Shown: piece after piece, positions 11,973-43,820 of the stretch
Numbering within the stretch: the stretch's first letter is position 1
Layout: each line of letters starts with the position of its first letter
Source of the DNA: an uncultured SAR116 cluster alpha proteobacterium
GTDB taxonomy: Bacteria; Pseudomonadota; Alphaproteobacteria; Puniceispirillales; Marisalimonadaceae
Assembly (NCBI GenBank): GCA_902630555.1
Contig: CACOVB010000004.1
Coordinates: forward strand, 1-43,820
Length of the DNA: 43,820 nt
Direction: 5' to 3'
The notes under the pieces: generated by a model
Database searches by the model: none
Seen by the model: the letters and a program-made list of their open reading frames with translations, nothing else
What the model was told of the DNA's origin: nothing
Position numbers and translations under genes: made by a program

Positions 11973-12001
11973 AAAAAAAAAGGCAAGACCTAAGTCTTGC
12001 C
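11973..12001 (-). terminator. intrinsic terminator of the tmRNA transcript
   Basis: Stem ggcaagac-ctaa-gtcttgcc (8 bp, 11982-12001) followed on the minus strand by a U-run (A-run 11973-11981 on +). Confidence 0.85.
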
Positions 12002-12003
12002 CT

Positions 12004-12256
12004 TGAGTTTCTGTTGCCAGGCAGTTCAACCCCGCCGATCCTTGCTAGAGGATAGGACTTTAATTTCGGTTACTTTAGCTGCTAAGCAGCTGCTGCAACC
12101 GGAGCGTAGTTGTCGTTTGCAACTATTAAATAGCCCGATATCGGTGGTACAATGCCGAGTAAAAGTTTTATTTTTATCACACACGTCGATCCTATTTCAC
12201 CCCCGTAATTATTTTGGTGGAGGTGCCGGGTACTGCCCCCGGGTCCGCAGAGCTTA
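12004..12256 (-). ncRNA. ssrA: circularly permuted two-piece tmRNA (acceptor piece, ~10 nt intervening sequence, coding piece with tag ANDNYAPVAAAA)
   Basis: Minus strand: ...GGACCCGGGGGCAGTACCCGGCACCTCCACCA (acceptor end, CCA at 12217-12215), AAATAATTAC spacer, then GGGGGTGAAATAGGATCGAC (5' end at 12204) and GCA AAC GAC AAC TAC GCT CCG GTT GCA GCA GCT GCT TAG (12120-12082). GGGGGUG pairs with CACCUCC including the G3:U70-type pair. Outer boundaries approximate. Confidence 0.95.
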
Positions 12257-12377
12257 TTTTATAAAATGTTTATTACTATAGTCATTTAAGACTTAATAAA
12301 TATATATTAATTTCAAAAATTATTAAAGAGCAATGACAATTAAAATACTTTTTGTTATTAATGTTTAGAGGTTAAAA

Positions 12378-43093: not shown

Positions 43094-43312
43094 ATGAATT
43101 TATTTAAATTAAGCAGAATTATATCTCTAATTAGTTTTTTTTGTATAATAATATCATTTTACTTATTAATTTTTGAAAAAAAAAGTGCCACAATAGATGA
43201 ATTAGTTTTAGTCGTATTAGTATCAATTGTATATTTGGTGCCAATTTTGATTTTTAATTATGTTTGTTTTAGAGAAATTACTTTCTGGATAAAAAAGACT
43301 AGAGACGAATAG
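43094..43312 (+). CDS. hypothetical two-TM membrane protein
   Basis: 72 aa, two hydrophobic segments; no recognised family. Confidence 0.45.
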   Translation: MNLFKLSRIISLISFFCIIISFYLLIFEKKSATIDELVLVVLVSIVYLVPILIFNYVCFREITFWIKKTRDE

Positions 43313-43682
43313 AATTTAAATAAATTTTAATTTTTTTTTCATAAGAAAAACATGAATTATTTTTAAACTTTTGAAAATATTTTTCCGTTTCACCTTTAAT
43401 TTCGTAGTTAATAAAATTTACACAGCTTTTGATATAATTATTTATTTCAATAAGTAAATTTTCATTTATACCATCAATTGTTTTATCATTTGTAAGTTTA
43501 ATTAATTGTAATAATTCATTTTGTGTAAAGGTATTAAAAACAAAACTCAATTGTAAATAAGTATCTTCATACATATAATCGTGGGGAATTTCTTCGTTCC
43601 ATATTTCGTTAGGTAAAGTCCAATTTTGGTTTAAATTAAATTTTAGAAGTTTAAGTTTTAATTCTTGAAAAGTATCTATCAT
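43299..43682 (-). CDS. hypothetical protein
   Basis: 127 aa soluble ORF MIDTFQELKLKLLKFNLNQNWTLPNEIWNEEIPHDYMYEDTYLQLSFVF...; no recognised family. Confidence 0.5.
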   Translation of the reverse strand: MIDTFQELKLKLLKFNLNQNWTLPNEIWNEEIPHDYMYEDTYLQLSFVFNTFTQNELLQLIKLTNDKTIDGINENLLIEINNYIKSCVNFINYEIKGETEKYFQKFKNNSCFSYEKKIKIYLNSIRL

Positions 43683-43697
43683 TTAATATTCAAAATC

Positions 43698-43717
43698 ATG
43701 GGGAATAAATTCCCCAT
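43698..43717. other. perfect 8-bp inverted repeat (atggggaa-taaa-ttccccat), terminator-like on + strand (followed by TTTTAATTTTT)
   Basis: Direct reading of sequence; orientation of function uncertain. Confidence 0.5.
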
Positions 43718-43734
43718 TTTAATTTTTAAGTTTT

Positions 43735-43808
43735 CACTTTCCTATATTTGACTATAGGAAGTGGTAACGAATAAAATTATAATAGACATAGACCACCTCC
43801 TTTCTAAA
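43735..43808 (-). promoter_or_regulatory. putative translation/attenuation leader: extended Shine-Dalgarno, 15-codon ORF, mutually exclusive hairpins
   Basis: Minus strand TTTAGAAAGGAGGTGGTCTATGTCTATTATAATTTTATTCGTTACCACTTCCTATAGTCAAATATAGGAAAGTG; AGGAGGTGGT can pair with ACCACTTCCT, and CACTTCCTATA can pair with TATAGGAAAGTG (one bulge). Confidence 0.5.
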
Positions 43809-43820
43809 GTTAAATTATTT

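Follow-up and report, generated by a model that had tools for sequence, protein, structure and literature searches.

The DNA analysed here (hereafter the window) is an entire contig of 43,820 bp (G000:C4) from a 57%-complete genome of a SAR116 alphaproteobacterium. The element of interest sits at the very end of the window on the minus strand, so that its promoter has been cut off. Read along that strand, what the contig retains of it begins with the 3' arm of an AU-rich hairpin (43806-43820), which is followed by a full-length Shine-Dalgarno (SD) sequence, AGAAAGGAGGUGGUC (43791-43805), and by an ATG start codon (43789-43787) located 6 nt after AGGAGG. The start codon opens a 15-codon ORF that encodes MSIIILFVTTSYSQI and ends with a stop codon (43742-43789). 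Two helices can be drawn on this region. In helix A, the SD segment AGGAGGUGGU (43801-43792) pairs with ACCACUUCCU (43765-43756) inside the ORF through 10 bp including one G-U, and in helix B (43735-43764; arms 43753-43764 and 43735-43746), CACUUCCUAUA pairs with UAUAGGAAAGUG through 11 bp with a bulged A, a GUCAAA loop and the stop codon within the 3' arm. Because helix B joins the ORF segment of helix A to the downstream UAUAGGAAAGUG, the two helices compete. Helix B is further lengthened by pairing of UAAUUUUA with UAAAAUUA (about 43772-43779 with 43720-43728). The original prediction had read this arrangement, from the letters of the window, as a possible RNA switch, and all the sequence features that it named were located on the minus strand.

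Beyond that description, a terminator-like hairpin, AUGGGGAAUUUAUUCCCCAU, with the weak tail GAUUUUGAA lies at 43698-43717 on the minus strand; it is terminator-like on the plus strand also, and the relatives described below have strong U-tract terminators. It is followed by a co-directional gene for a 127-aa protein (43299-43682, minus strand), which lacks an SD of its own, follows the element only in the window's genus and lies outside the RNA shared by the wider family. Note that the contigs of two independent genomes (the window, at 43806-43820, and L009) break inside the element; its stable hairpins may hamper assembly.

We compared the SD with the 16S genes of genus members, which end with GGAUCACCUCCUUUCUAAGGA. 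The predicted anti-16S segment, AGAAAGGAGGTGGTC at 43791-43805, pairs with this real tail even further than had been proposed, so that the entire free tail is covered by 15 nt with one G-U. The free energy of the SD:16S duplex was -28.3 kcal/mol; among the 42 start sites in the window, the runner-up reached -12.1 and the median was -3.25. The 12-mer AGAAAGGAGGTG occurs only once in the 0.98 Mb genome to which the window belongs. The SD match is far beyond chance, its rarity being judged from this one motif count and from the window's own genes. That the sequence might be a plus-strand 16S fragment or pseudogene was considered and rejected, because the conserved unit is a minus-strand series of promoter, SD, ORF and terminator and its conservation falls precisely on the positions that pair with 16S. 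In a comparison of 43791-43820 with the end of the 16S gene of G057 (L047), complementarity seemed to extend into the 16S-23S spacer (AUUAAAUUAUUU). This extra pairing (AAUUUAACUUUAG, resembling the G057 spacer) was absent when G055 was compared with its own spacer (L048 versus L008), and it is therefore probably a chance product of AT-rich sequence.

The element was present as a single copy in 8 of the 13 genomes of the genus, the other five being incomplete genomes. A search with the 127-aa protein retrieved six loci, their annotation being either SAR116-cluster or alphaproteobacterial, all of which carry a nearly unchanged element upstream. The conserved block runs from a sigma-70-like promoter through the terminator-like hairpin into the 127-aa gene, and sequences further upstream are less conserved. 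The promoter-like motif is TTGTCA-N16-TAAAAT in L003, with variants across L003-L008, and falls beyond the contig end in the window; transcript boundaries as given here rest on such promoter-like and terminator-like sites. AGAAAGGAGGUGGUC was invariant in all eight genus copies. Its left edge coincides with the expected mature 16S end, and the preceding base varies. Within the genus alone, two-sided covariation was found in neither helix A nor helix B because the sequences are too similar. An Rfam search of L003 at lax thresholds yielded chance matches only, and viral contigs, scanned once with an exact pattern for a phage origin, gave 0 matches.

A covariance model built from the eight genus copies (R1) retrieved more distant copies from another family within the order (f2; L059-L061 and L063) and one copy in another genus, g4 (L062). 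L059 and L061 can form helix B from other sequence than the genus does, and their SD partner (CCUCC or ACUUCCU) is found at the same place. Between the genus and f2, five pairs of helix B have changed on both sides (CG/GC/UA, AU/UA, UA/CG, AU/CG and UA/AU; aligned by eye). One side of helix A is fixed by 16S, and its changes were G-U or one-sided only. According to the original prediction, a lack of homologues, or of compensatory substitutions in either helix, would speak against a switch; homologues and, by hand alignment against the sister family, two-sided changes in helix B were both found, so that this objection fails. Note that the partner in helix B lies 3' of the stop codon in the window and upstream of it in the hairpin of most relatives.

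We next asked whether the SD could be masked by its own RNA. In the window, SD-to-ORF pairing reached -16.7 versus about -9.5 in shuffled sequences (p 0.005; 0 of 100 in a second run), and the hairpin region had a z-score of -3.9 against shuffles. Among 63 copies, the intramolecular partner of the SD was better than in shuffles by a mean of -2.3 kcal/mol, with a combined p of 1.6e-11 that, like any combined p-value here, overstates the evidence because copies and lineages are related. The signal is modest on average, only 21% of the 63 copies being individually at p<0.05. The SD partner lay within the ORF in 53 of the 63 copies versus 37.9 expected, and the stop codon was positioned at a median of 9 nt 3' of that partner. 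Relative to shuffles, the ORF region likewise had more structure (mean z -1.0 +/- 0.15, compared with the -3.9 of the window).

A search for the motif in related genomes, as the original prediction had suggested, gave matches across the order and the class. Specifically, 78 of 136 genomes in the order contained AAGGAGGTG-N2-6-ATGTCTA and 55 of 386 genomes sampled evenly across the class contained AAGGAGGTGRTC-N1-3-ATGTC, with 0 matches for the reversed-pattern control in each case; AAAGGAGGTGATCC-N0-3-RTG was found in 59 of the 386 class genomes, many with GTG starts. In a phylum-wide draw, a related pattern occurred in 64 of 126 alphaproteobacterial versus 5 of 253 other genomes, indicating that it is specific to Alphaproteobacteria. 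A sequence-only model (R2), constructed from 22 copies with the window's genus left out, found the window element as the sole match in its genome (E 2.5e-6) and matched 109 of the 386 class genomes, nearly always with one copy. A few of the weakest matches (15-16 bits, confined to positions 9-25) probably represent antisense 16S, since the antisense of 16S genes matches R2 at 14.5 bits, and about 105 genomes is therefore the fairer count. A typical copy consists of AACAA-N3-GAAAGGAGGUGAUCC-N-AUGUC, an ORF of 15-36 codons, a hairpin and an intrinsic terminator. The start codon is followed by a UCN codon, and nearly all peptides begin with MS. Three minor observations were made. First, G147 carries two different family copies (L154 and L155), nearly all other genomes having one. 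Second, in L116 and L214 the same full-length SD precedes ORFs of 56-57 codons that resemble secreted proteins; ordinary gene starts may thus at times capture the element or look like it. Third, an ACGAAA/CACGGAA box recurs just before the terminator in many copies (L098-L112 and others).

The family led us to CC2171, a Caulobacter sRNA that reportedly originates from the 2008 study of Landt et al. The window did not match the Rfam model of CC2171 (RF01867) at its gathering cut-off of 75 bits, and its genome gave no match up to E=10. One relative (L125 in G411) scored 78.8 bits, the only one above the curated 75-bit cut-off, and other relatives gave CC2171 matches of 13-73 bits; for most of the 40 genomes tested, the CC2171 match coincided with the place located by pattern. 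Matches in SAR116 genomes included G124 (E 9e-6), G108 (1e-5) and G126 (7e-4). The CC2171 consensus starts with cAAcaAucGAAAGGAGGUGAUCCAGUGUCUCAU, carries the 5' motif AACAA-N-GAAAGGAGGUGAUCC-N-RUGUC and has a terminator at its 3' end. The window bears this 5' motif, as recognized by the leave-genus-out model R2, in the variant GGUGGUC with a spacer 1 nt shorter. However, its RNA body, helix B and weak terminator are its own, and the genus as a whole is unmatched by CC2171. The claim that the element is undescribed thus held for the window copy itself, but not for its relatives, which a catalogued model matches. Given that the window fails the defining score while relatives match, it is related to CC2171 rather than a curated member. 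Judged by sequence, the window carries a divergent SAR116 representative of a CC2171-related family that is specific to Alphaproteobacteria and of which a genome usually has a single copy. In the literature searched, we found no role for CC2171, mentions being table entries only. CC2171 can now be seen as an RNA that is apparently alpha-wide and usually single-copy, with an SD complementary to the full 16S tail, a putatively translated ORF indifferent to its peptide and predicted internal SD masking, and a simple signature annotates the family, also in streamlined marine genomes that the Rfam model misses.

To see what selection keeps in the ORF, we examined non-redundant copies. The ORF ran without a stop for 13 or more codons past the start in all 45 copies versus 22.9 expected from dinucleotide shuffles, and the other two frames were open in 22 and 9 of the 45. 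In the four larger genus-level groups, substitutions were spread evenly over codon positions (e.g. 0.33, 0.32 and 0.34) and pN/pS was 0.74-0.89; two small groups of 3-4 sequences gave values near 0.5. Peptides of different lineages were unalignable, a recurrent hairpin, GGAGCAGCCUCC, reads as EQP in one frame and as SSL in another, and a frame shift shortens the ORF in L082. Neither a codon bias nor a stalling motif was seen. An open frame combined with even substitutions suggests that translation matters and the peptide does not, so that translation itself appears to be selected.

Taken with the family anatomy, that is, a predicted promoter of its own, a full-tail SD, a start codon plus UCN codon, an ORF of 15-36 codons, a hairpin and an intrinsic terminator, these results are best explained, in our opinion, by a divergent CC2171-related RNA whose SD is masked by itself and opened by ribosomes, an explanation that we believe and doubt in about equal measure and whose mechanism we infer. 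A segment within the ORF would mask the very strong SD that precedes it, and a 30S subunit that outcompetes the mask would start translation. The translating ribosome would then traverse the masking segment and halt just past it, leaving the SD open for the next ribosome. Since the ribosome would clear the mask and stop just after, initiation would be self-reinforcing, and occupancy of the RNA could respond steeply to free ribosomes, in the manner of a switch. Candidate outputs are protection or decay of the RNA, a pairing segment freed in trans, or titration of 30S subunits, and in the window's genus leakage through the weak terminator may feed the 127-aa gene too. This self-masking model would explain at once why the SD matches the 16S tail in full, why the frame is kept open while the peptide varies, and why the stop codon lies where it does. 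Sensing of ribosomes is plausible. Its extension to a ribosome sensor across the class, in which a mask resembling the 16S tail within a peptide-irrelevant ORF would set a threshold on free 30S subunits and the fate of the RNA would be the read-out, is put forward tentatively. In this way, an unexplained sRNA becomes a testable hypothesis on how Alphaproteobacteria may sense ribosome supply.

An RNA that acts by base pairing in trans is a somewhat improbable alternative. Here the GGAGG-rich region or the loop of the hairpin would pair in trans, for example as a sponge for CCUCC-containing sRNAs, and the SD look would be secondary. Rfam files CC2171 as an sRNA, and sRNAs with anti-SD loops are known in Alphaproteobacteria: the sponge CrfA titrates the anti-SD sRNAs SisA-D, which have the core UUUCCUCCCU (PMC12559287), and rhizobial sRNAs carry CCUCCUCCC loops (PMC3927594). 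These are, like the element, short alphaproteobacterial RNAs built on SD/anti-SD pairing. However, the polarity of SisA-D and of the rhizobial CCUCCUCCC RNAs is opposite, as the element itself bears the SD, start codon and ORF. Moreover, the match to the 16S tail is full length, reaching past GGAGG to include GAUC, and a correctly spaced start codon and an open frame are conserved too.

The original prediction also held that the element is a leader coupling ribosome availability to the downstream gene, i.e., that translation of the leader ORF sets the choice of helix and thereby terminator read-through into the 127-aa gene. Translation attenuators and uORF leaders, such as rbfL of S. aureus (PMC13009471), share with the element an extended SD, a short ORF, competing structures and the use of short-ORF translation as the signal. 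In the window's genus and f2, a co-directional gene begins just after the terminator (the 127-aa gene, and a PqiA-like gene in f2), and in the genus the U tract is weak, the 127-aa gene is without an SD and all seven genomes having this gene carry the element before it. However, the downstream gene varies by lineage (127-aa, PqiA-like and others), and a ribosome on the stop codon would be too far away to touch the terminator stem. According to ORF tables rather than curated annotation, g4 has a strong terminator followed by an apparently convergent gene, as do many relatives, and neighbouring genes differ throughout the class, often being convergent or unrelated. The element was absent directly upstream of 127-aa homologues in other genera, and a conserved downstream gene was found within the genus only, not across the family. 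With such variable neighbours, and homologues elsewhere without the element, a cis leader is not the general function. A leader role is thus unlikely as the explanation of the element, and read-through into the 127-aa gene is possible in the window's genus. Of the original interpretation, what stood is that the element is selected and structured, that its full-length SD precedes an ORF that looks translated, and that its pairings exclude one another; the general leader role did not stand. Because a terminator of its own is usual and the neighbour often convergent, the sequences suggest a small autonomous RNA that is not mainly a leader. The 127-aa protein itself had no Pfam match. In g4, the region homologous to it forms the N-terminal part of proteins of about 276 aa, which end in a gamma-glutamyl cyclotransferase-like (GGACT) domain.

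Two further readings fare worse than the self-masked, ribosome-opened RNA. A ribosome decoy, whose strong SD would titrate or park 30S subunits, for example during slow growth, is quite unlikely: pairing of -26 to -28 kcal/mol over the whole 16S tail and an ORF without peptide conservation would suit it, but a single-copy RNA would need very high abundance, and masking of the SD is odd for a pure decoy. A small mRNA for a functional micropeptide, to which the conserved start codon, SD and ORF length and the recurrent MS would point, is very improbable and was rejected, given the near-neutral pN/pS of the four larger groups, with no purifying selection on a peptide that is unalignable between lineages and partly read in two frames. 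Elsewhere in the window, an alphaproteobacterial two-piece (permuted) tmRNA with the tag ANDNYAPVAAAA was observed at 11991-12331 on the minus strand.
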